NCBI GenBank assembly: GCA_944386755.1
Contig: CALXCF010000015.1
Span: forward strand, 1-41,444
From: an uncultured Clostridia bacterium
GTDB lineage: Bacteria > Bacillota > Clostridia > TANB77 > CAG-508
Direction: 5' to 3'
DNA: 41,444 bases
Shown here: positions 5,854-41,444 of the stretch, one piece after another
Layout: the number at the start of each line of letters is the position of its first letter
Position numbering within the stretch: the stretch's first letter is position 1
Program-made: the position numbers and the translations under genes
The notes under the pieces: model-generated
Told to the model about the DNA's origin: nothing
The model's database searches: none
Seen by the model: only the letters and a program-made list of their open reading frames with translations

Positions 5854-8499
5854 TTAATTTGTATTTGTTGTATTTGATGTGTTACTTGAATTTGTAATAG
5901 GTGGTGGTGTAGTGTTTGCTGTATTGTCAGTTGTATTCGTATTTGATGTGTTAGTATTGCTTGTGTTAGAAGCATTTGAAGTGTTAGATGTATTTGTTGT
6001 GTTTGTTGTTTCTGGTGGTTTTTCTTCTTGCTTTGGTTCTGTATGTAATGTGCAAACTTCATTTATTTTTGTACCACCTGTTGTAGAACTTTTTCCTACT
6101 GGTTTCCACAATTTTAATTGTTCTTTTGGTATTACTGCACCATAATAATTTGTTGTAACTGTACAATATTGTGAGCAATATGCTGTTGCAACTTTACCAG
6201 ATTCTGAACATATTTGTTGGCTTCCATGTCCTTGACATTTCTCTGGTAAATTGTTTGATGTAAATATCTCTTTATATGTATCGTTACATCCTGTTGTAGC
6301 TAAACAACCTGTTTTTCTACATACTGTTTGTTCTACTATTCCACTTGGTTTTGTAAATGATGCCTTATCTAGTCCTTTATGAATATCTGTCATAACTGCA
6401 TCCCAAATTTGTCCTGCTGGGTTTTGGCTGAATCCTCTTACTTCTTCATTTCTGTCATATCCAAACCAAGTTGCTGCTGCATAATATGGTGTAAATCCAC
6501 ATAGCCATCTATCATAGCTTTCATCTGTTGTTCCTGTTTTTGCTGCAACATCAATTCCTGATATTGCACAATATTTAGCTGTACCATTACTTGCTTTTAC
6601 TGGCTCTTGTGTAATTGATTTTACTAAATATGCTGTTTGTTCTGAAAATACTCTTGTTTCTTCTTGTTTTGGTGTTAATACTGTATTTCCACTTGAATCT
6701 ACAACTTTAGTGTAGAAAGTTGGTGTGATGTATACTCCATCGTTTGCAATTGTTCCGTATGCTGCTGCCATTTCTAATGGGCTTGAACCATTGCTAGTAC
6801 CTCCAATTGCTAGTGATAATACATTATCTGCTTCTTTAGTTAGAGATGTCATTCCCATTTTATTTAAATATTCTAATGATTTTGCTGGTGTTAGCTCTTT
6901 CATTATTTTTAATGCTGGTATGTTATGTGATACTGCAATAAATTGTCTAATATTTATAAGTCCATCATAATCGTCGCCTTCATTTTTAGGTTCATAGTCT
7001 CCGCCAAAATTTGTTTTTACATCATCATATACTGTTGCTGGTGTAATTATTCCTTCTTCTAATGCTGGTGCAACATCTGCAAGTGGTTTTATTGCTGAAC
7101 CTTGTTGTCTTCTCATTTGTGTTGCTCTATTCCATCCAGATGCTTCTTTTTGTCCTAATCCTCCTGCTATTCCTACTACATATCCTGTTTTATAGTCTAC
7201 TATAGCCATTCCTGATTGTGTATGTTCATTTATTAAGTTTCCATCTTTGTCTTTATCTCTTCCTGATTTTATATATTTTTCTTTTGCATATTCTTCTTCT
7301 AATCTAGTTTGGACACTTGTATCAACTGTTGAATAAATTGTTAATCCGCTACTATATACATAGTTTTCCGCAATTTGTCTTGATACTCCTCTTTCTTCCA
7401 TTACTTGGTCTATTACTTGGTCTAGTACTGCATCTGTGTGATATGAATAATCTGTACCATTTGAAATTTGACCTTTTTGGAAGTTTAATCCATTATCTAC
7501 TTCTGCAATAGCTGCATTATATTCTTCTTCACTATTTATATATCCTAATTCTTTCATTTTATTTAAAACTGTTTTGGTTTTGTCTTTTATTTTTTGTGTA
7601 TTATCTGTTGATGTGTCGAATGGATTATACGACATAGGGGAACTGTTTATTCCTGCCATATATGCACATTCTGCTAATGTTAAATCTTTTGCAGATTTGT
7701 TAAAATAGTATTCTGCTCCAAGTTCAACACCATGCAAGTTTCCTTCTCCACCAACAAATAAGATATTTAGGTATAACTCTAAGATTTGGTCTTTTGATAT
7801 CATTCTTTCAACTTGATATGCTTTTGCCCATTCTCTTACTTTTCTGAAAATTCCAGCTAGCCCTTCTGATTCGTCATCATCAGTTATGTTTTTTACTAAT
7901 TGCTGTGTTATTGTACTTCCTCCATAGCTTGAACTACCTTTAAATATTGTATTTAATATTGCTCCTGCTGTTCTTTTTAAATCTACTCCACTATGGTCAT
8001 AAAATCTTTCATCTTCGATTGCTACATAGGCTTTTGGTAGATATTCTGCCATGTCTTCAAGTGTTATTATTTTTCTTTTTTCATCTCCACTCAAGTTTGC
8101 AAGTACTGCACCATTTGAATCAACTACGACTGAGTTTGAAACTCCTATTTGAAGTTCTTCTTTTGTTATTTCGAAATCATCTCCAAATAGTCCAAAGAAT
8201 ATTCCTGCAACTACTCCTGCTCCAATAACACAAAGTAATAGGAATAAAATAATCATTATTTTAATAAACATCATTAATTTAGGATGTCGTGCCGAAAATT
8301 TATCCTTTTTACCTTTTTTACTGTTTCCTTTTGTTCCATTACTTTTTTTAGGTACTGGCTTCTTACCTGTTGGTACTCTTTTTGTTTGTTCATTATTTGC
8401 TACTCTTTTTGCAGTTTTTCTTCTTTTATTTTGTGGTCTATATTTTTTTGTTTGTTCTTTGTCATATTCTTTATTTCTTCTATTATTCTCGCTTGGCAT
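5854..8499 (-). CDS. Class A penicillin-binding protein (PBP1A-type glycosyltransferase/transpeptidase)
   Basis: 881-aa bifunctional peptidoglycan synthase. A basic cytoplasmic tail (1-~75, many Lys/Arg) precedes one transmembrane helix (~76-102). Then comes the GT51 glycosyltransferase domain with AIEDERFYDHSGVD (~161) and SSYGGSTITQQLVKN. The transpeptidase has SxxK as GSAIKPLAD (Ser ~467), an SHN-type motif (VSHNIPALK) and KTGTTDE (~652). The C-terminal part has about ten cysteines (CRKTGC...CNDTYKE...CSQYCTV...CTLH), then a low-complexity tail rich in Asn, Thr and Ser (roughly 830-881). That tail is probably a flexible wall-exposed linker. ATG at 8499 with AGGAGG 9 nt upstream. Likely ortholog of ponA/mrcA/pbpF; paralogues cannot be separated here. 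Confidence 0.93.
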   Translation of the reverse strand: MPSENNRRNKEYDKEQTKKYRPQNKRRKTAKRVANNEQTKRVPTGKKPVPKKSNGTKGNSKKGKKDKFSARHPKLMMFIKIMIILFLLLCVIGAGVVAGIFFGLFGDDFEITKEELQIGVSNSVVVDSNGAVLANLSGDEKRKIITLEDMAEYLPKAYVAIEDERFYDHSGVDLKRTAGAILNTIFKGSSSYGGSTITQQLVKNITDDDESEGLAGIFRKVREWAKAYQVERMISKDQILELYLNILFVGGEGNLHGVELGAEYYFNKSAKDLTLAECAYMAGINSSPMSYNPFDTSTDNTQKIKDKTKTVLNKMKELGYINSEEEYNAAIAEVDNGLNFQKGQISNGTDYSYHTDAVLDQVIDQVMEERGVSRQIAENYVYSSGLTIYSTVDTSVQTRLEEEYAKEKYIKSGRDKDKDGNLINEHTQSGMAIVDYKTGYVVGIAGGLGQKEASGWNRATQMRRQQGSAIKPLADVAPALEEGIITPATVYDDVKTNFGGDYEPKNEGDDYDGLINIRQFIAVSHNIPALKIMKELTPAKSLEYLNKMGMTSLTKEADNVLSLAIGGTSNGSSPLEMAAAYGTIANDGVYITPTFYTKVVDSSGNTVLTPKQEETRVFSEQTAYLVKSITQEPVKASNGTAKYCAISGIDVAAKTGTTDESYDRWLCGFTPYYAAATWFGYDRNEEVRGFSQNPAGQIWDAVMTDIHKGLDKASFTKPSGIVEQTVCRKTGCLATTGCNDTYKEIFTSNNLPEKCQGHGSQQICSESGKVATAYCSQYCTVTTNYYGAVIPKEQLKLWKPVGKSSTTGGTKINEVCTLHTEPKQEEKPPETTNTTNTSNTSNASNTSNTNTSNTNTTDNTANTTPPPITNSSNTSNTTNTN

Positions 8500-8606
8500 T
8501 TTCGTACCTCCTTGCCAATTTAAAATTTAACATTTATATTATATTATAAAATTCATAAAAAGAAAAGGTTTTGAGGTGAAATTTATGAAATATTAATATT
8601 TCAATA

Positions 8607-9488
8607 TTACAACAATTTAGTAATTTTAACTTTATCTTTTCTAATTTTATTCATAATGTTTTCAATTGGTTGTTGTTTATAGATATAAGCCTCATAAATA
8701 TTTTTCTTATAATATATGTTTTCTTTATCAAAATCAAATTCTTCTAAATTTTCATATTTTATTTCATAATCATTATAAATTTTACCTTCAAATCTTTTTT
8801 GATTAATTTTTATATTTCCTCTTATATTGATTATGCTTGCTTTTTCAGCAATTCTATATTTGTTAATTAATTCATTGGGAAAATCTACATTTAATATTAT
8901 ATCTGATTTTGTTAAACTTTTTTTCTTATTGTTATTTACTGTAATCATTATTCCATACTCTTCTAAAATTTGCTCTTCTAATTTCTTGAATTTTTCCATA
9001 TGATTAGTAACTATGTTTATGTTTTTATATTTTTTAATTATTTGATTTATGATTTCTAAAATAATTTCATCTAAATCATTTACTAATATGGATATTTTTA
9101 TCTTTTCTGATGTAATATTGTTTTTCTTGACAACGTAGTTTATTGCATCAAATGCTAGAACTTTAAAAAGCCATCTTCCATCACTTATTTCAAATCCATA
9201 TGTATATAATTGATTACAAAAAATTTCTTTTCCTTGCATTTCCTTGCTCAAAATTACTTTTTTGCAATGGGTTTTATCTAAAATTTTCTTTGTTTTTTTA
9301 GCAATTAGCATTTCTTGTTTTGTAATCTTTTTTTCTAATTCTGAGTCTTTTTTTCTTATTTCCTTTTGGTTGTTTTTTTCCTCTGTCTCTAAAAACATTG
9401 GTAATATTATTTTATCTTTTTCTAATTTTGGAATTAATAATAATTGAGATAATATTTTAGGCTTGTCAGTTTCTTGGATAAAATACAC
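8607..9488 (-). CDS. Uncharacterised clostridial protein after truB
   Basis: 293 aa, Lys/Glu/Ile-rich, not recognised as a named family. There is no signal peptide or membrane segment, so it is probably cytoplasmic. The middle (about 100-215) looks like an alpha/beta Rossmann-type fold, with predicted strands such as KISILVNDL, NINIVTN and SDIILNVDF separated by helices. It therefore could be a degenerate nucleotide-binding domain, but I see no glycine-rich loop or catalytic motif. I prefer GTG at 9488, 9-10 nt after GAGGAG, over GTG at 9497, which overlaps the site. It is the last gene of the infB/truB cluster. The ribosome binding site lies inside a hairpin (9493-9533). Confidence 0.75.
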   Translation of the reverse strand: MYFIQETDKPKILSQLLLIPKLEKDKIILPMFLETEEKNNQKEIRKKDSELEKKITKQEMLIAKKTKKILDKTHCKKVILSKEMQGKEIFCNQLYTYGFEISDGRWLFKVLAFDAINYVVKKNNITSEKIKISILVNDLDEIILEIINQIIKKYKNINIVTNHMEKFKKLEEQILEEYGIMITVNNNKKKSLTKSDIILNVDFPNELINKYRIAEKASIINIRGNIKINQKRFEGKIYNDYEIKYENLEEFDFDKENIYYKKNIYEAYIYKQQPIENIMNKIRKDKVKITKLL

Positions 9489-9492
9489 TAAA

Positions 9493-9533
9493 ATCACTCC
9501 TCATATACTTTTATTCAAATATATGTGAGTGAT
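9493..9533 (-). promoter_or_regulatory. Hairpin overlapping the ribosome binding site of the 8607-9488 gene
   Basis: ATCACTC (minus strand, 9527-9533) pairs with GAGTGAT (9493-9499); an inner CATATA/TATATG pairing closes a 12-nt loop. The 3' arm contains the GAGGAG site and is followed by TTTTA. It could be a weak terminator after truB or a translation-gating hairpin. Confidence 0.45.
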
Positions 9534-9566
9534 TTTCATTATATTACTATTTAGTTTTTTTATGCT

Positions 9567-10446
9567 TTAGATTATAATATCTCTTTTTAATAGATTGTCT
9601 TTTATAATTCCTATTCCAATAAAATTTTTATTGCTATATATTTTATATATTCCATCAGGTTTGTTTTGTGTTAACTTTACGCCATTTAAAAATAATTCTA
9701 GTTTTTTATCATTTAATTCAATATTTTCCTTTTCTTTGAATAATTGTTCTATTGTAATTAAGTTTTTGTTAATACTGTTTTTTAATTCCTTTTCTTCTTG
9801 ATTTTGCAGTTCTTCGATTGTAATAGAATTTGATATATTAAATTGCCCTACTTGTGTCCTATTTAAATTTAACATATATCCGGACTGTTCCTATTTTTTT
9901 TGCTATATCTTCACATAGACTTCTTATATATGTACCTTTAGAGCAACTAACTTCAAAACTTATAACCTTATTTGCTTTATCAACATTTTTTAATTCTATT
10001 TTATATATTTCAATATTTCTTGGCTCTATTTCAATTTTTTCACCTTTTCTTGCATATTCATATAGTTTTTTTCCTTTTACTTTTATTGCTGAATACATGG
10101 GTGGTATTTGTTTTTGTTTTCCTTGAAATGAACTTAAAGCTTTTTTTATTGTTTCTTCTTTTAATGCTTCTTCTGGCACTTCTTTTTCTTCTATTATTTT
10201 TCCTTCACTATCTGCTGTCTCTGTTTTTATTCCTAATTTTAGTTCTACTTGATATGTTTTGTCATGGTTCATTAGGTATTTTGAGCATAGTGTTCCTTTT
10301 CCTATTAATATTGGTAATACTCCTGTTGCTAGTGGGTCTAATGTTCCTGTGTGCCCAACTTTTTTGCCTGTTATTTTTTTTATTTTATATACTATATCAT
10401 GTGAGGTATAGTTTTTTGGTTTGTTTATTATTATTATTCCATCCAT
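9567..10446 (-). pseudogene. truB: tRNA pseudouridine synthase B, split by a +1 frameshift
   Basis: TruB makes pseudouridine 55 in the T-loop of tRNAs. The N-terminal piece (10446 to 9859) has the family start GIIIINKPKNYTSHDIV and the catalytic Asp37 in GHTGTLDPLATG, then CSKGTYIRSLCEDIAKKIGTV. It then runs out of frame. The C-terminal piece (to stop at 9567) continues in another frame with LNLNRTQVGQFNISNSITIE, the normal TruB continuation, and the small C-terminal PUA-like region. Removing one C of the CC at 9880-9881 restores GTVGYMLNLNRTQVG and a 292-aa protein of normal length. The overlap is exact, so this is one gene with a single-base insertion: a real mutation or a sequencing/assembly error. 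The active site lies before the shift. Confidence 0.9.
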
Positions 10447-10450
10447 TGTT

Positions 10451-11404
10451 CTATTTTAAAGCTTTCCTTACTTCTTTTATCAATTTTTCTTTTACTTGTT
10501 CCACATTTCCTTGTATTAAAGCACCTGCAGCTCTTGGGTGGCCTCCACCACCAAATAAGAAACAAATATCAGATACATTAACTTTATTTCCTGAACGCAT
10601 AGAAATTTTATATGCATCTTCATTTTCCTTTTGCCTAATAAATATTGAAACTTCTACACCTTCTATGTCTCTGCCAATTTCAACTAATCCTTCATGGTCT
10701 CCAGGCTCTGCTCCTACTTCTTCTTCATCTTTTTTATCCATGTATGTGAAGGTAACTTTGCCATCTTCTAAAATTTCCATTCTATCCATAACTCTTTTAG
10801 ATAATTCAAAATTTGCTCTTGTCTTAGTATTTAATGTTCTTTTATATATATCTGGCACATCTACACCTAATCTAATCAAGTCTGCTGTAAATTCAAAAGT
10901 TTCTGGTGTTATTCCTACATGTCTGAATCCTCCTGTATCGGTTATAATTCCAGTCATTAGGCATGTTCCAATATCTTTTGTTATATCAATTTCATAGTAT
11001 TTTACCATTCCAGCTATAACTTCACAACATGCTGGTGATACTGGATTAACATAGTTTAAATCTCCATACATTGTATTGCTTCCATGGTGGTCTATAACTA
11101 TTGTTGATTTTGCATTTTCAAAATATTCTTTTTTTGCCATTCTTTTAAAAGTTGCACAATCTACTGATATTGCTAAATCATAGTTTTTTATTTCAGAGTC
11201 TATCATTATTTCTTCTGCTGATGGTAAAAAATTGAATAATCTTGAATATTCTGGTATTATTACATCTGCTTTTTTTTCTAGTTTTTCTAAGATTAATTTC
11301 ATCGCTAAACTGCTTCCTACTGCATCTCCATCTGGTGATTCATGTGTTAATATTACTATTTTTTCTGCTTTTTGTATTTGTTTTAATATTTCATCTAGAG
11401 TCAT
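10451..11404 (-). CDS. nrnA: Bifunctional oligoribonuclease / pAp phosphatase (DHH family)
   Basis: 317-aa DHH/DHHA1 phosphoesterase that degrades nano-RNAs and dephosphorylates 3'-phosphoadenosine 5'-phosphate. Motif I is THESPDGDAVGSS with D25-G-D27; motif II has VDC (81-83); motif III is VIDHHGSN with D105-H106-H107. The C-terminal DHHA1 substrate loop GGGGHPRAAGA lies near 285-293. ATG at 11404 with AGGAAAGG upstream. It lies 4 nt before truB and after rbfA in the usual Firmicutes order; the rbfA-nrnA gap carries a large palindromic element. Confidence 0.95.
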   Translation of the reverse strand: MTLDEILKQIQKAEKIVILTHESPDGDAVGSSLAMKLILEKLEKKADVIIPEYSRLFNFLPSAEEIMIDSEIKNYDLAISVDCATFKRMAKKEYFENAKSTIVIDHHGSNTMYGDLNYVNPVSPACCEVIAGMVKYYEIDITKDIGTCLMTGIITDTGGFRHVGITPETFEFTADLIRLGVDVPDIYKRTLNTKTRANFELSKRVMDRMEILEDGKVTFTYMDKKDEEEVGAEPGDHEGLVEIGRDIEGVEVSIFIRQKENEDAYKISMRSGNKVNVSDICFLFGGGGHPRAAGALIQGNVEQVKEKLIKEVRKALK

Positions 11405-35385: not shown

Positions 35386-37062
35386 CTAAACTTTCTCTAC
35401 ATATATTTCATCATTTACTGCTACTACTGTATAACAATTTAAATTCTCTATATTTTTTATTTCTTCAAATTCCATATATTCATTTATTTGTTCTTTTGCC
35501 TCTTTTTGTTTTTCTTTTAACTTTCCTGCTTCTTCTTTTTTCAAATATTTAAACTCTATCATTACTCCTTTGTATCCTTTACTTTTATCTTTTGGTATTA
35601 ATAATATATCTGGATATTTTCTTTGTACTTCCATTTCTGACTTTAGTCTAAATATTTTTAAATTCATTGCTATACAATAAAATATTAATTTTACGTATTT
35701 TTCATCAAATTTTATAAAGTCTCTATTTGACAAATTTTTTAAATATTCTCCTAGCATTTTAGTAATTTTGTCTATCTTACCTTCTAATGCTATTTCTCTT
35801 GCTATTTCTGTATAATTTTCATTAATATCTACATCTATATTTCTTTTTAGTATTTGTAAGAAATAATCTGAATAAATTTCTTTCATGACTTTGTTTGGTA
35901 TATTTAATTTCGGATATCCAACTTCTTCATCTTCTATTGTTAAATATCCTAAATAATACAACATTGAAACCAAATCTGTCTCCGTAAATTCCATTGCAGG
36001 GTTAAATTTCTGTGTTATTTCACTTACTATTCCTTCTCCTGATACTGTTTGTTCTATTACCCTTTCTCTTTCTTCTCCTTTGCATAAATCTAGCATCTTT
36101 CCTAACTTTGTATAATCACTTGCTATATTCACATCTATTAATTGTCTTGGTATCTCTTTATGTCTTGTGTAACTATTTAAGAAATATAAACACATATTTG
36201 AATTATATATTCTTTCTTTTGCATTTAATGAAAATCTATATCCATCATAATTTTCTTTCATTATTGGTAATATTTCTTCTTGTTTTTCTTTTGATATATT
36301 TTGTTCTTGCATTATACCTTTTAATTCTTCTTCTGTAAATCCTATCATTTCATTAAAATCTCTATCTTGCGTTATATCTAACCCTATATTAAATCCTGAT
36401 GTTAAACTGTCTAATGTTATTGGAGCTACTCCTGTTATAAATATTCTATCTATTACACTTTCTGTTCCTTCTTTTAATATTTCATACCATTTTCTTACTT
36501 TTCCGTTTTTAGATACTAAGTTTTTGAATTGATTCGTATTAAATCCCAATAGTTCATTTGCAAAATGGTCATATTCATCTATTATTACATATATTTTCTC
36601 TTCTGCTTTTTGAATTTTAAATGCCTTTATTAAATCATCTAATATATTTTCTGCTTCTTCATTTGAATTTACAAAAAAGTCTAAATTATATTTCTCCACA
36701 AAAAATTTTATTGACGATGCTACTTTGTTCTTAAATCCTAAAATTGTTGTTTCTTCATTCGTTGTATCTATTCCTGAAAAATTAAACCTCAAAATGTGAT
36801 AACTATTTTTTAATTTTGTTGGATTTTTTCCTATATATGTGTTTCCATATAACTTTTCAAATTTTTCTACTTTTTTTAAATCGTAATAATTTTCTAACAC
36901 GCTTGTAAATAGTGTTTTTCCAAATTTTCTTGGGCGTAAAAACATTATTCTTTTTTCTGCTATATTTTCTAATTTTTCAATATACCTTGTTTTATCTACA
37001 TAGTAATATCCATCTTCTATTAATTCTTCATAATTGCTTATTCCATATGGTAATTTTTTCAT
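35386..37062 (-). CDS. AAA-like ATPase with PD-(D/E)XK nuclease-fold C-terminus (DUF1703 type)
   Basis: 558 aa. The N-terminus has the family start LPYGISNYEELIEDGYYYVDKT, then the P-loop-like RPRKFGKT (43-50) and a Walker B-like VIIDEYDHF (~158). The C-terminal ~80 residues have a PD-(D/E)XK pattern: YPDILLIPK followed by GVMIEFKYLKK. This family is greatly expanded in gut anaerobes, usually as stand-alone genes, and its role is unproven. Start ATG at 37062 with GGAAGTGG upstream. It lies next to the DGR region on the same strand, but nothing ties it functionally to the DGR. Confidence 0.88.
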   Translation of the reverse strand: MKKLPYGISNYEELIEDGYYYVDKTRYIEKLENIAEKRIMFLRPRKFGKTLFTSVLENYYDLKKVEKFEKLYGNTYIGKNPTKLKNSYHILRFNFSGIDTTNEETTILGFKNKVASSIKFFVEKYNLDFFVNSNEEAENILDDLIKAFKIQKAEEKIYVIIDEYDHFANELLGFNTNQFKNLVSKNGKVRKWYEILKEGTESVIDRIFITGVAPITLDSLTSGFNIGLDITQDRDFNEMIGFTEEELKGIMQEQNISKEKQEEILPIMKENYDGYRFSLNAKERIYNSNMCLYFLNSYTRHKEIPRQLIDVNIASDYTKLGKMLDLCKGEERERVIEQTVSGEGIVSEITQKFNPAMEFTETDLVSMLYYLGYLTIEDEEVGYPKLNIPNKVMKEIYSDYFLQILKRNIDVDINENYTEIAREIALEGKIDKITKMLGEYLKNLSNRDFIKFDEKYVKLIFYCIAMNLKIFRLKSEMEVQRKYPDILLIPKDKSKGYKGVMIEFKYLKKEEAGKLKEKQKEAKEQINEYMEFEEIKNIENLNCYTVVAVNDEIYVEKV

Positions 37063-37678: not shown

Positions 37679-37815
37679 TTTTAACCTTCTATTTTTTACT
37701 TATATTCTATAATTTTACATATTATATTTTAAAACACTGCATAAAATAAGTATATTCAAATAGATTTCCTATCCTACTAATACCTATTTTACTGATACAT
37801 TTTTACCTATTCGGG

Positions 37816-37863
37816 AAGGAATAAATCTCTTTAATACTAATACATTTACTGTATATATTCCTT
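37816..37863 (-). repeat. Hairpin in the RNA 3' of the template repeat
   Basis: AAGGAATA (37816-37823) and TATTCCTT (37856-37863) are exact complements, 28 nt beyond the TR end in the transcript. In the Bordetella phage DGR, RNA 3' of TR takes part in priming cDNA synthesis, so structure here may matter. Confidence 0.4.
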
Positions 37864-37891
37864 GAAATATATAATCTGAAAATTGTATTAG

Positions 37892-38008
37892 AGTGCTGGA
37901 CGGAAGGTTTTGTTGTTGTTGGCATTGTCATTATTACTATTGCGTTTGCTCGCTCTGTTGTTGCTATTCCTATTGTAATTGCCTCCTCTATTAACAAACG
38001 GATTGCTT
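37892..38008 (-). repeat. DGR template repeat (TR)
   Basis: 117 bp matching the 3' end of the target gene (40102-40218). On the coding strand it is rich in AAY codons: read in the VR frame it encodes NPFVNRGGNYNRNSNN followed by more Asn. All 21 differences from VR are at A in TR (13 A to T, 6 A to G, 2 A to C in my count). The flanks diverge abruptly on both sides. It lies 39 nt after the RT stop codon. Confidence 0.97.
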
Positions 38009-38047
38009 CTTCAATTTTTCGATTTATCCCTAATTATTATTGTTTTA

Positions 38048-39067
38048 TTATAAGTTCTTTTTCATATAAAATAATTTTTCTGTTAGATTATTAACATTTG
38101 CATACTTTATATATCCCATATGTCCTGCTAAAAATTTTTTGGCTTCTTTGCTTGTAATTTTTCCTTGTTTTATTTCATATTCTAATTTTTTAATCTTCTT
38201 CTTTAATTTTCTTTTTCCTTTATCTCTAATCTTCATTCTATATTCGTTTATCTTATATCCACAAAAATTTACTCCTTGCTTGTTTTTAAATATTTGTGTT
38301 TTTTTATTTAGTTCTAACTGTAAATTATCTTTCAGAAAAAGTTTTATTTTTTCTAATATTTCTTTTGCTTCTTTCTTCGTTTTCAACATTAAAACTGAAT
38401 CATCTAAGTACCTACAATAATATCTTACCTTTAATTTATGTTTTATATATTGGTCTACTTCATTTAAATATATATTTGCAAACATTTGTGATGTATAATT
38501 TCCTATTTCTAATCCTTTTTCTCTTTTTTGAGCATATAATATTTCATTTATTAACCATAATAAATCTTTGTCTTTTATTTTTCTTTTTATGATATTTAAT
38601 AATATTTCTTTATTTATATTATCAAAATATTTTGCTACATCCATTTTTAGGATATAATATTCGCCCCAAATTCTTTTACAATGTTTCATCTTCTCTTGCA
38701 CATATATTGCAGCTCTATGCATACCTCTATTCTTTAAACACGCATATGAACTTGTGATAAATTGTGGCACAAAATTAGGTTCTAAAAAATTGTCTACTAC
38801 CCATCTATGTACTATTCTATCTATATATCTTGATTTTTCAATTTTTCTTAACTTAGGCTCAGTTACATAAAAAGTACTATATCCTCCATGTTTGTATGTC
38901 TTTCTTTGCAATTTTTCTAACAACCACATAATATATTCTTCTTGCTTTAAATTAAATAGTATTATTTCTTTTCTATAACCTTTTCCTTTTCTTGATTTAA
39001 TATGTGCTTCCATTAGCTTTTCATAAGTTAAATATTTTTGAAATTGATTTCTAATTGTTTTTGGCAT
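38048..39067 (-). CDS. DGR reverse transcriptase
   Basis: 339-aa group II-intron-related RT of the diversity-generating retroelement class. Motifs: SRYIDRIVHRWV (RT1-2), LKMDVAKYFDNI (motif A, catalytic Asp ~145), GNYTSQMFANIYLNEVD (motif B; the SQ-containing form is typical of DGR RTs), YCRYLDDSVLM (motif C, YLDD ~219-222) and VNFCGYKI (motif D/E). No maturase or endonuclease domain. It copies TR RNA to cDNA with adenine-specific errors. The start overlaps the Avd gene by 17 nt; AGGAGG lies 14 nt upstream. TR follows within 40 nt. Confidence 0.96.
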   Translation of the reverse strand: MPKTIRNQFQKYLTYEKLMEAHIKSRKGKGYRKEIILFNLKQEEYIMWLLEKLQRKTYKHGGYSTFYVTEPKLRKIEKSRYIDRIVHRWVVDNFLEPNFVPQFITSSYACLKNRGMHRAAIYVQEKMKHCKRIWGEYYILKMDVAKYFDNINKEILLNIIKRKIKDKDLLWLINEILYAQKREKGLEIGNYTSQMFANIYLNEVDQYIKHKLKVRYYCRYLDDSVLMLKTKKEAKEILEKIKLFLKDNLQLELNKKTQIFKNKQGVNFCGYKINEYRMKIRDKGKRKLKKKIKKLEYEIKQGKITSKEAKKFLAGHMGYIKYANVNNLTEKLFYMKKNL

Positions 39068-39419
39068 AATATTTTATTATTCCTCCTAGTATTTTTCCTA
39101 TTTCATATATTTGTTCCATTGCTACTTTAAATTTCTTTTCGTCTATCCATCTGTTCTTTTTCATTATCCTTAAGTATATTCTTTGGGTATTTAATAATCC
39201 ATCAATTTCATTTAAGTAGTATAATACGTTTTTCTTTTCAATTTTCGAAATCATCATAATATTTTTCATCATTTGGTATAAACTTAATTTATATTCTGTT
39301 CCTATACTATACTTTTCTACTCTTGGTAATTTAAAAATTATTTGCAATATATATTCAATATATTTTTCTGCTTTTGGGATTAATTGTAATCTGTTTTCCT
39401 TTTTTTGTTCTTTAGACAT
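39051..39419 (-). CDS. avd: Avd-like DGR accessory protein (four-helix bundle)
   Basis: 122 aa, all alpha, basic (many Lys). The sequence has the family pattern IPKAEKYIEYILQIIFKLPRVEKYSIGTEYKLSL, then NVLYYLNEIDGLLNTQRIYLRIM, as in Avd/S23-like helical bundles. In the Bordetella system Avd is a pentamer that binds RT and nucleic acid and is required for mutagenic homing. It overlaps the preceding MutS-like gene by 8 nt and RT by 17 nt, so the three are translationally coupled. Confidence 0.9.
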   Translation of the reverse strand: MSKEQKKENRLQLIPKAEKYIEYILQIIFKLPRVEKYSIGTEYKLSLYQMMKNIMMISKIEKKNVLYYLNEIDGLLNTQRIYLRIMKKNRWIDEKKFKVAMEQIYEIGKILGGIIKYYAKNN

Positions 39420-39852
39420 CTTCGTTTACCTCGTCTTTGAATAATTCTTCTTCATATAACTTTTTTACTGCTTCAATGTATATATCTTCTTTTTTGTAAT
39501 ATCTTCCACAATGTTTGCATTTATAACAATTTAGTTTTTGCTCTGTTTCTTCATTTTTTCTTTTCCCTTTGCAACTCTCTACAATTGATAATTCTTTTTT
39601 ATTTTTATCAAAATAGAAAATGATATAACTATATCTACTTTTTATTAATAATTCTGTATATTTTTCTAGTGATTGTATAGGAAAACCCACTTTGCATACT
39701 TCTGTTTTAAAACAAGTTACTTTTAATCCTAATATTTTATTTAACAATATTGCATCTTTTCCTATTGCTACATAAAAATCACCTGCATTACATATTACTA
39801 TTCTTCCTTTTTCTTTTATTTGTAATAATTCCATCATTTGACTAAAACTCAT
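39412..39852 (-). CDS. MutS domain I-like DGR accessory protein with zinc-ribbon motif
   Basis: 146 aa. The segment GDFYVAIGKDAILLNKILGL, then a Lys/Cys stretch, then KVGFPIQSLEKYTELL follows the MutS N-terminal mismatch-binding domain pattern (gDFYE...DA...L.i.LT...GvP.hsle.Y...L). The C-terminal part adds CYKCKHCGRYY, a Cys-rich knuckle that could bind zinc. The rest of MutS (ATPase, clamp) is absent. ATG at 39852 is preferred, with GAGGAAG 8 nt upstream; GTG at 39861 sits inside that site. MutS-like accessory proteins occur in a subset of DGRs. First gene of the msl-avd-RT operon. Confidence 0.85.
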   Translation of the reverse strand: MSFSQMMELLQIKEKGRIVICNAGDFYVAIGKDAILLNKILGLKVTCFKTEVCKVGFPIQSLEKYTELLIKSRYSYIIFYFDKNKKELSIVESCKGKRKNEETEQKLNCYKCKHCGRYYKKEDIYIEAVKKLYEEELFKDEVNEDV

Positions 39853-39878
39853 TTTTATCACTTCCTCTCATTTTTTGC

Positions 39879-39918
39879 TGTGCGTTTTTTATGCTTTAAA
39901 AAGCACAAAAAACGCACA
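39879..39918 (-). repeat. Long hairpin just upstream of the MutS-like gene
   Basis: TGTGCGTTTTTTATGCTTT (39879-39897) against AAAGCACAAAAAACGCACA (39900-39918), 19 bp with one mismatch that is a G-U pair in the minus-strand RNA; loop about 2-6 nt. On the minus strand the 3' arm does not end in a T-run. It lies about 20 nt before the ribosome binding site. Confidence 0.6.
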
Positions 39919-39923
39919 CTGGA

Positions 39924-39937
39924 AGTGTGCGCACACT
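39924..39937. repeat. 14-nt perfect palindrome
   Basis: AGTGTGCGCACACT. CCAGTGTGCG is also directly repeated here on the minus strand. Lies between the two larger hairpins; could be an operator or part of a compound structure. Confidence 0.5.
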
Positions 39938-39992
39938 GGAAAAAATTTTCTTGTTCCTCATTCCAGAACTCGGAACAAGAAAATTTTTTCCA
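39937..39992 (-). repeat. 21-bp perfect inverted repeat downstream of the DGR target gene
   Basis: Arms 39937-39957 and 39972-39992 are exact complements (TGGAAAAAATTTTC... and ...GAAAATTTTTTCCA) around a 14-nt loop. About 97 nt after the target gene stop and 110 nt after VR. Likely a terminator; the position also recalls the hairpin that lies downstream of VR in some DGRs. Confidence 0.75.
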
Positions 39993-40088
39993 TTAACTCA
40001 TTTCATTCGTTAATCCATATATTTAATTTTACTATATTAAAACAACTTTTTTCAATTTTTCTAATTTTAGTTTTCACAGCCTTCAGTT

Positions 40089-41444
40089 CTACATTATATA
40101 AAGTGCTGGACGGAAGGTATAGTAGTAGACGGCAACGTCATAACCACCATAGCGATTGCTCGCTCTGTAGTTGCTATCCCTAAGGTAATAGCCTCCTCTA
40201 AGAACAAACGGATTGCTTGTGTTATTTTTTTCTGCTACATATTCATAACAATTTCCTTCTAAATCATAAATATTTTGTACTTTATCATATTCATTTTTTC
40301 CTGCTGTTGTTTTACTTCCTTTATGTCTATTTGCATCATATGTTCTTACATCATATGTCTCCCCTTGTGCTGGTTTTTTTCCATCTACAAATTTCATTAC
40401 CATATCCCATTGTATTCCTGAACACATTGCACTTCTTACTGCTGTACTATTACTACTGTTGTACATACTTTTTCCTATATCTTCTTTAAATTCTGTTTGT
40501 GTTCCTTTTGTATATACTGTTGCATCTTGCTTACTTATTACTGTTGTTCCATCTTTTCCTGCTTCATATCTTGCTATATAAAATCCATTGTATTTCATTA
40601 CTGCATTTCTTTCTGCTTCTTCATTACTTTCTGCATCATTTCTTGATTCTTCTGGTATTGTTGCTTGGATTTCATTTGGCAAATATCCTGTATCTGTAAA
40701 TGTATTTTCTAAACTAGCACTATAATTACTTGGATAACTAAAATCTCTTATATATTCTCCTCCTGTTGCTACTGGTATCCATACAAATTGATTATATAAG
40801 GTTTGCACTTGATATGCTCCATCTTCATTTTTGGCTGTCCAATCTACACTTGCTAATTCATCTTCTGGTATATCATATATTACTAATCCACTTGATATTT
40901 TTTGCTCTTCTGGTATTTTTGATACTACAAATCCTGCTGGTACTGTTGCTTTATTTCCTTCTGAATCTGTATAATTATTTTTTACTGTTGTTGCTACTAT
41001 TTCTCCTGGTTGTACGCTACCTGTTTGACCTCCACCTGGATTTTCACTAGGTCCTGGTCCTGTTATATTTCCATTACTATCAATTGTATAAACTCTATTT
41101 GATGGTGGGGCAAATGTTACTGTTATTGTTCCATCTCCATTATCTACTGCTTTTGCATTTGTTCCATTTGTTTCAAATTCTCTATTTAAATCATCTGCTG
41201 TTATATCTTCTGTTCCTCTTTTTTCTGCTACTGCTCCTGCATATGCTAATTGTATTGCCTCTTTTTCTTCTGCTGTCTCTGTATCTGTCTTTGCATCATT
41301 TGCTCTTGTTAATATTCCATTCTCTCCTGTTAATGTTGCAATGCTTACTGCTGCTAAAATTAAAAGTACAATAATGTTTAGTATGTTATCGATGGTTAGG
41401 CTGTAGAAAATCAGACTGGAATAAATCACTAGACCAGCCTGACC
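40089..41444 (-). CDS. DGR variable target protein, pilin-like N-terminus and C-type lectin/FGE-like C-terminus
   Basis: At least 446 aa from GTG 41429; the frame stays open to the window edge and no ribosome binding site precedes that GTG, so the true start may lie outside. The N-terminal helix IIVLLILAAVSIATLTGENG followed by ILTRANDAK resembles clostridial type IV pilin-like proteins. A Gly/Pro linker (GPGPSENPGGGQTG) precedes a domain with WIPVATGGEYIRDFSYPS, YNGFYIARYEAG, MCSGIQWDMVMKFV and NIYDLEGNCYEYV, as in FGE-sulfatase/CLec-fold DGR targets. It ends in NPFVLRGGYYL...RPALYIM, which is VR. Diversified residues are mostly Tyr, Val, Leu and Gly where TR has Asn. Surface-displayed ligand binding is inferred. 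Confidence 0.92.
   Translation of the reverse strand, partial: GQAGLVIYSSLIFYSLTIDNILNIIVLLILAAVSIATLTGENGILTRANDAKTDTETAEEKEAIQLAYAGAVAEKRGTEDITADDLNREFETNGTNAKAVDNGDGTITVTFAPPSNRVYTIDSNGNITGPGPSENPGGGQTGSVQPGEIVATTVKNNYTDSEGNKATVPAGFVVSKIPEEQKISSGLVIYDIPEDELASVDWTAKNEDGAYQVQTLYNQFVWIPVATGGEYIRDFSYPSNYSASLENTFTDTGYLPNEIQATIPEESRNDAESNEEAERNAVMKYNGFYIARYEAGKDGTTVISKQDATVYTKGTQTEFKEDIGKSMYNSSNSTAVRSAMCSGIQWDMVMKFVDGKKPAQGETYDVRTYDANRHKGSKTTAGKNEYDKVQNIYDLEGNCYEYVAEKNNTSNPFVLRGGYYLRDSNYRASNRYGGYDVAVYYYTFRPALYIM
40102..40218 (-). repeat. DGR variable repeat (VR) in the target gene
   Basis: 117 bp at the 3' end of the target gene. The 3'-most 17 nt (ACCTTCCGTCCAGCACT) and the 5' part are identical to TR, and the conserved 3' segment is the likely initiation-of-mutagenic-homing site. 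The invariant GC-rich codons (RGG, RAS, TFRPAL) are scaffold; AAY codons are the mutated sites. Confidence 0.97.

Follow-up and report, generated by a model that had tools for sequence, protein, structure and literature searches.

In the available text of PMC12875486, the diversity-generating retroelement (DGR) of BPP-1 is described as making adenine-specific changes, with a spacer RNA that recruits bRT-Avd and primes complementary DNA (cDNA) through an internal adenine. HRDC and MSL (PF01624) are listed as known DGR accessories in the available text of PMC10053308; the presence of MSL in such an element is not new. Here, we analyse a cassette at the end of contig CALXCF010000015.1 from an uncultured Clostridia bacterium (GCA_944386755.1). 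The window, that is, the whole stretch of DNA analysed, is this entire contig (C15, 41,444 bases) of a 1.59-Mb genome in 41 contigs. By the defining features tested, the cassette is a DGR. Its template repeat (TR) and variable repeat (VR) differ at 21 of the 50 template adenines and nowhere else. Very probably, this DGR is set to use error-prone reverse transcription to rewrite the end of a pilin-like protein that is likely displayed on the surface, and the 3′ part of its template RNA is likely the Rfam family RT-14. The cassette is genuine and probably active, of a known kind and ordinary for that kind.

Repeats, genes and activity of the cassette

The gene order on the minus strand is target (with VR), MSL, Avd, reverse transcriptase (RT), TR and RT-14 RNA. 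The parts are, by position:

37741..37893, minus strand: RT-14 RNA (Rfam RF02921), directly 3′ of TR; Infernal 100.3 bits, with the gathering score at 48.1, full length (model 1-144 of 144)
37892..38008, minus strand: TR, 117 bp, with 50 adenines on the coding strand; realignment and repeat scan
38048..39067, minus strand: DGR-type RT, 339 amino acids, motifs IGNYTSQ and YLDD; RVT_1 6e-19
39051..39419, minus strand: Avd accessory protein, 122 amino acids; bAvd 4.2e-15, DivGenRetAVD 6.6e-18, the latter below that model's cut-off
39412..39861, minus strand: MSL accessory, 149 amino acids, a MutS domain I with Phe-Tyr-Val for Phe-X-Glu, a C-terminal Cys pair and no ATPase; MutS_I PF01624 1.6e-8
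40089..41373, minus strand: target gene, with a pilin-like N-terminal segment (IVLLILAAVSIATLTGENGIL...) and a variable region at the C-terminus that ends in TFRPALYIM, the start of the gene being outside the contig; open reading frame (ORF) and pilin-like N-terminus matches
40102..40218, minus strand: VR, 117 bp, with 21 substitutions, all at TR adenines; realignment

Realignment of 37892-38008 with 40102-40218 reproduced the gapless 117-bp pair reported in the first-pass annotation, as well as its 21 differences, each at an adenine of TR on the minus strand (13 to T, six to G, two to C). None of the 67 non-adenine positions differs, and 29 of the 50 adenines are unchanged. If 21 mismatches were placed at random, the chance of all falling on adenine would be about 9e-10. 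A minus-strand scan of the last 7.4 kb for pairs tolerant of changes at adenine recovered the TR/VR pair alone; a 24-base match to TR elsewhere in the genome (C6:64344) is likely due to chance. VR forms the in-frame 3′ end of an ORF that ends TFRPAL (...SNPFVLRGGYYLRDSNYRASNRYGGYDVAVYYYTFRPALYIM for the target ORF). The same annotation had placed the changes in AAY codons, which is nearly but not wholly so, as the 15 changed codons comprise 12 AAY, two AAA and one AGT. Pfam domains (RVT_1, bAvd, MutS_I) bear out its placement of RT, Avd and a MutS-like gene between VR and TR on one strand. It had also called the cassette complete, which holds with a caveat: the target gene is truncated at the contig edge, and the 71 bases at that edge are the end of a mobile element and not a usual prepilin leader. 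The MutS-like gene, for which the annotation gave no explanation, is the known accessory MSL, and RT-14, the other three DGR loci of the genome and the mobile-element end beside the target lie outside what that annotation described.

RTs of the DGR clade carry [LIV]GxxxSQ instead of QGxxxSP. The motif [LIVM]GxxxSQ is found in 79 of 81 RTs of the family, and YxDD likewise in 79 of 81. For comparison we used 80 related RT loci (these and all further loci are labelled L plus a number), mostly from uncultured Clostridia-type assemblies, some of them from animal gut according to record titles; 60 of the 80 have an A-biased TR/VR pair. In one, L076 (908-3796), the DGR RT gene seems to be split by a group II intron that encodes an RT itself (Rfam group II matches at 1649 and 3377).

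The host genome itself encodes four DGR-type RTs, those on contigs C4, C6 and C3 being 83%, 44% and 35% identical to the one on C15. All four loci have A-biased repeats, with 21 adenine and no other changes on C15, 15 and 0 on C4, 24 and 1 on C6, and 25 and 0 on C3. The C3 locus (L112, C3:40000-56000, 7458-11370) has a 159-bp TR/VR pair, its RT lies on the strand opposite to target and TR, and MSL-like genes adjoin both target and RT; the Rfam scan gave no RT-14 match there at gathering score. Because housekeeping genes share contig C15 (by Pfam, arginyl-tRNA synthetase, IF-2, NusA, ClpX, trigger factor and RsgA), the location of the DGR is most likely chromosomal. Beyond TR, on the strand of the cassette, lies a gene with AAA-ATPase_like and PDDEXK_9 domains (35386-37062), for which PADLOC gave no match at E ≤ 0.01.

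The suggestion that the cassette was active in the recent past gains support from relatives of the same layout, in which different VRs accompany one TR. In L007 and L009, both MSL-type, with RTs of 99.8% nucleotide identity and identical TRs, the VRs differ at 23 of 47 template-adenine sites and at none of the 84 others. The non-MSL loci L050, L051, L054 and L055 (RT 99.3-100%, TR identical) show pairwise VR differences at 13-15 of 30 adenine sites and at none of the 79 others.

The RNA at the 3′ end of the template repeat

Helix P1 of RT-14 (CUAAUAC/GUAUUAG) starts at the end of TR/VR identity. RT-14 reached gathering score in 17 of the 20 sources scanned, the others being L111 (46.4 bits in another scan), L112 and L053. 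Our own covariance model of P1 and P2 (R1), built from 40 of the same 80 loci, matched in 76 of the 80, all except L025, L039, L053 and L058. Of the 59 loci in which RNA element and TR were both found, 49 have the RNA starting at a constant distance from the TR end. Twelve of the 16 base pairs in P1 and P2 change on both sides, giving 77 cells, compared with 11.2 on average after shuffling (0 of 500 shuffles), in an alignment that was fitted to the structure and consists of related sequences; one drawn P2 pair is unpaired in 73 of 74 sequences.

The same junction appears when the search starts from the RNA. Among 398 genomes of the phylum, RT-14 was found at E ≤ 0.001 in 12 (11 over the cut-off), at 15 places, with a DGR-type RT adjoining at all 15 and a TR/VR pair at 12. 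Ten of these pairs are in fetched loci of up to 3.2 kb, with the TR end at 1497-1504 and the start of the RNA match at 1501; the remaining two are our genome's loci on C4 and C15, in longer stretches. Nine such loci with a TR/VR pair, all from other genomes, are ordered VR-Avd-TR-RNA-RT, as in BPP-1. Within the same family, RT-14 was present in 55 of 145 genomes (50 over the cut-off), and of 30 loci taken, 25 had an RT inside the fetched stretch. The other five were L189, L193 and L205, which are short and at contig edges, L186, where an MSL gene follows, and L200.

The slot next to TR is not reserved for one family. In a control with BPP-1, the spacer between TR and brt matched RF03022 ('Bacteriophage Diversity-Generating Retroelement RNA', Phage_DGR) at 104.7 bits. 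An Rfam scan of 20 further Avd-like loci gave RT-14 in two, RT-9 (RF03080) in one and neither in the rest, which include L147, many weak Avd-like matches and one locus that gave ribosomal RNA. RT-9 starts about 16 bases past a TR whose VR differs at five adenines and no other sites; it is present in four copies in one genome and was found in one of the 398 phylum genomes. These copies (L206-L209, in the 3.4-Mb genome G367) share an identical 155-base TR region with RT-9 and the same five adenine changes per VR, and look recently multiplied. Judged by position in the sequence, three Rfam families (RF02921, RF03022 and RF03080) occupy one slot, RT-9 in a single genome. Because it sits in the slot of the Phage_DGR RNA of BPP-1, RT-14 is, by analogy, likely the spacer of the DGR template RNA, that is, its priming and RT-binding part.

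The TR transcript would run on into RT-14, the fold of which would, by this analogy, recruit RT-Avd and prime cDNA at the boundary of TR and P1. RT would then misread template adenines, and the cDNA would replace VR through the 3′ end that is identical in both, CCTTCCGTCCAGCACT, and through the 5′ part, which is homologous, with MSL possibly binding DNA or a ribonucleoprotein during homing.

The RT-14, RT-9 and Phage_DGR RNA families had no mention in the literature searched; the 2017 paper in which the RT families were described lies outside that search. Within this scope, RT-14 as a template RNA is unremarked. Their place in the template-RNA slot gives RT-14 and, in one genome, RT-9, families catalogued by number only, a testable role as DGR template RNA, and the RT-14 covariance model lets annotators of DGRs mark the 3′ end of TR even where VR is missing.

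Some loci show further arrangements. Template-RNA elements occur in tandem in L079 (9, 370, 723), L067 (1862, 2167) and L193 (336, 745), which suggests several TRs served by one RT, and in L072 (3254-3341) such an element lies on the strand opposite to RT. By eye, N-rich frames ending in FR/SR/CR-like residues precede RT-14. Counting AAY codons upstream of RT-14 did not work as a test for TR, as at least eight were found upstream of 30 of 31 elements, but also in 23 of 31 background stretches.

The target gene, a mobile-element end and alternative readings

At the contig end, the target gene meets a second element:

41374..41444, minus strand: right end of an IS91-like element of about 2.4 kb, occupying the place expected for the prepilin leader codons, a repeat at the contig break; sequence matches

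Among the 44 targets in which an ORF covers VR, 27 have a leader of the GITLIALVIT type; the 17 of 61 VR loci that gave no ORF are left out of this count. With contig-edge ORFs excluded, the count is 25 of 30. The C3 target has it. In the window, the mobile-element end stands in place of this class III-type prepilin leader, ahead of the hydrophobic segment of the target. A chimeric contig end was ruled out, since the element-end sequence, 28-71 bases long, recurs in 35 of 194 sampled genomes of the genus, our own included. Longer copies of the element, which encodes a Y2 transposase, an IS91 zinc domain and a tyrosine integrase, were seen in related genomes only. Contigs C4 and C6 start at the same codon and may also carry it. 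In L237, L238, L239, L240, L241, L242, L245 and the window, the right end adjoins pilin-like genes at one leader codon, an arrangement seen in many genomes of the genus; in most of the copies read, this right end is joined to the pilin downstream by an open frame, and it is predicted to contain a 10-bp hairpin. Searching the genome with the pilin-like N-terminus gave 16 matches at E ≤ 0.001, of which the two lowest-ranked are weak and four are DGR targets. With four DGR loci directed at pilin-like proteins in 1.6 Mb, the genome is well suited to asking what such proteins bind.

Three other explanations have to be weighed. If TR and VR were an ordinary duplication that decayed with biased substitution instead of retrohoming, one would point to copies within 2.4 kb of each other in an A+T-rich genome (window GC content 0.28). 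But the absence of any non-adenine change, the recurrence of A-biased changes at the three other DGR loci of this genome and between near-identical relatives, and the adjoining RT and Avd genes all argue against decay, and the strand- and base-specific pattern does so strongly; we regard this origin as extremely improbable. RT-14, for its part, could lie outside the template RNA and be a regulatory RNA or terminator in its own right, placed after TR by chance. Its Rfam type is simply sRNA (small RNA), and it is known here from sequence alone. This is nevertheless very unlikely, considering the constant offset to the TR end, the TR-RNA junction that is kept in nine other-genome loci of a different gene order, the start of P1 where repeat identity ends, and the slot that it shares with the Phage_DGR RNA.

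The third alternative, a silenced DGR, would keep its parts intact, its target having lost the leader to the IS91-like element and its present VR being left over from earlier activity. The ends of contigs C30 and C34 of the same genome, upstream of two other pilin-like genes, match the window's last 71 bases without a difference, and the genes carried by the element are those of a mobile element. Its left end is in view in five relatives, and in two of them (L238, L241) the element begins inside the leader codons, following GITLIALVIT or GITLIALVVT; all this speaks for silencing. However, in the remaining three (L237, L242, L245) other sequence precedes the left end, so that simple insertion does not fit all copies. 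The ORFs of RT, Avd and MSL are open, as is the pilin frame, which continues in frame from an ORF starting in the element, and the assembly cannot tell if every cell carries the element. Silencing therefore appears rather unlikely, and we prefer to read the locus as a DGR with a pilin-like target.

Several observations nonetheless weigh against this preferred reading. Because the mobile-element end lies where the leader should be, export and expression of the present target are uncertain, as far as its sequence indicates. A model of the C-terminal 228 residues of the target is poor, with a confidence score (pLDDT) of 57 and no convincing fold match, and a C-type lectin fold of the variable domain is putative, going by the look of the sequence. 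The support for activity comes from relatives and not from the window's own strain, and one pair of these, L044 and L046 (RT 100%, TR identical), differs in VR at 23 of 31 adenine sites but also at seven of 77 non-adenine sites, the sole exception among the eight pairs that share an identical TR. A stem-loop immediately following VR was not consistently predicted (z of −0.93 in the window, mean z of −0.45, eight of 61 loci below −1.5), although this is a trait of BPP-1 rather than part of the general definition of a DGR. Finally, RT-14 is not universal in DGRs, as the C3 locus and L147, with a clear TR/VR pair (13 adenine and no other changes), are without a match, and as the family was named for its proximity to RTs, its adjacency to RT is partly circular, whereas its abutment to TR is not.

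MSL, its hairpins and comparison with known systems

The AlphaFold model of MSL (pLDDT 89) has MutS proteins as its best Foldseek matches, Taq MutS first (E 3.8e-6), and a profile search against PDB sequences likewise gave MutS (E 0.0022), with a Phe of MSL aligned on the wedge Phe of MutS. This Phe is kept in all 41 aligned MSLs. At the Glu position, in contrast, the 41 have Glu once, Ile, Val or Leu 28 times and other residues 12 times; among 203 homologs, the 120 listed all have Ile, Val or Leu and none has Glu, and 118 of these 120 carry a C-x2-C pair near the C-terminus. Only the MutS_I part was matched by Pfam, with none of the ATPase, clamp and lever domains of MutS found. The full-length MutS of the same genome reads GDFYEMF at this site, with Phe-Tyr-Glu intact, and a MutL-type gene is also present. 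In the available text of PMC3848065, MutS with Glu38 changed to Gln loses discrimination between mismatched and matched DNA, and Glu38 is believed to be part of ATPase signalling.

A tentative idea, which we consider possible but doubtful, is that MSL is a disarmed MutS, having kept the wedge Phe and lost the Glu for mismatch reading and repair signalling, and that it covers mismatches in the cDNA-VR heteroduplex from the host MutS until replication fixes them. MSL was found, in some cases partially, in 50 of the 80 related loci and sits on 53 rows of a quick RT tree with six changes, a tree with long branches in which rows L008, L052, L079 and L082 were unlabelled before MSL was counted. Loci with MSL have more substitutions per VR (22.2 against 12.6) and more TR adenines (50 against 31), but the fraction of adenines changed is 0.44 with MSL (37 loci) and 0.42 without (24 loci; p = 0.17). 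This near-equality speaks against MSL raising the density of mutations, and because of it a strong shielding effect is also unsupported. For an accessory known by name but without an explanation, the data on MSL provide a concrete hypothesis on how DGRs coexist with mismatch repair. L070 (7727-8023) has a single short ORF with matches to MSL as well as Avd, apparently fused by a deletion, and the database protein P0104 carries both Pfam domains.

Two predicted hairpins lie between VR and MSL:

39879..39918, minus strand: hairpin just upstream of the MSL start, where hairpins recur in MSL-type DGRs
39937..39992, minus strand: second hairpin, with a stem of about 20 bp

In 37 of 47 MSL loci, the 120 bases upstream of MSL contain a strong hairpin, often some 20-30 nucleotides ahead of the MSL start; such a hairpin was found upstream of Avd in two of 27 non-MSL loci, and in four of 470 mononucleotide shuffles. 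The stems of 31 distinct hairpins hold 27 G-T against nine A-C pairs under strand-blind scoring, an excess hinting at a role at the RNA level. The best hairpins listed for other loci include none similar in sequence to the second one, and Rfam microRNA matches over the hairpins were below cut-off and are taken as chance.

Like the BPP-1 DGR (AY029185), the window has an RT, an Avd-type gene, TR and VR, and a structured spacer RNA after TR. It differs in the added MSL, in a TR that follows RT instead of lying between the Avd gene and RT, in a spacer of RF02921 instead of RF03022, and in its target, which is a cellular pilin-like protein and not a tail protein; its type also comes without a consistent stem-loop right after VR. 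Compared with MutS, MSL shares the fold of domain I and the wedge Phe, but the Glu of Phe-X-Glu is replaced, and the ATPase, clamp and lever domains that would follow in MutS were not among its matches. The DGRs with MSL accessories of PMC10053308 have the same standalone MutS domain I beside a DGR RT; the available text of that source gives no motif, RNA or mechanism, whereas the change in Phe-X-Glu, the Cys pair and the upstream hairpin are described here. For RF02921, the window matches the RT-14 model over its full length (1-144), and while the Rfam label states no role in DGRs, we place this RNA at the 3′ end of TR.

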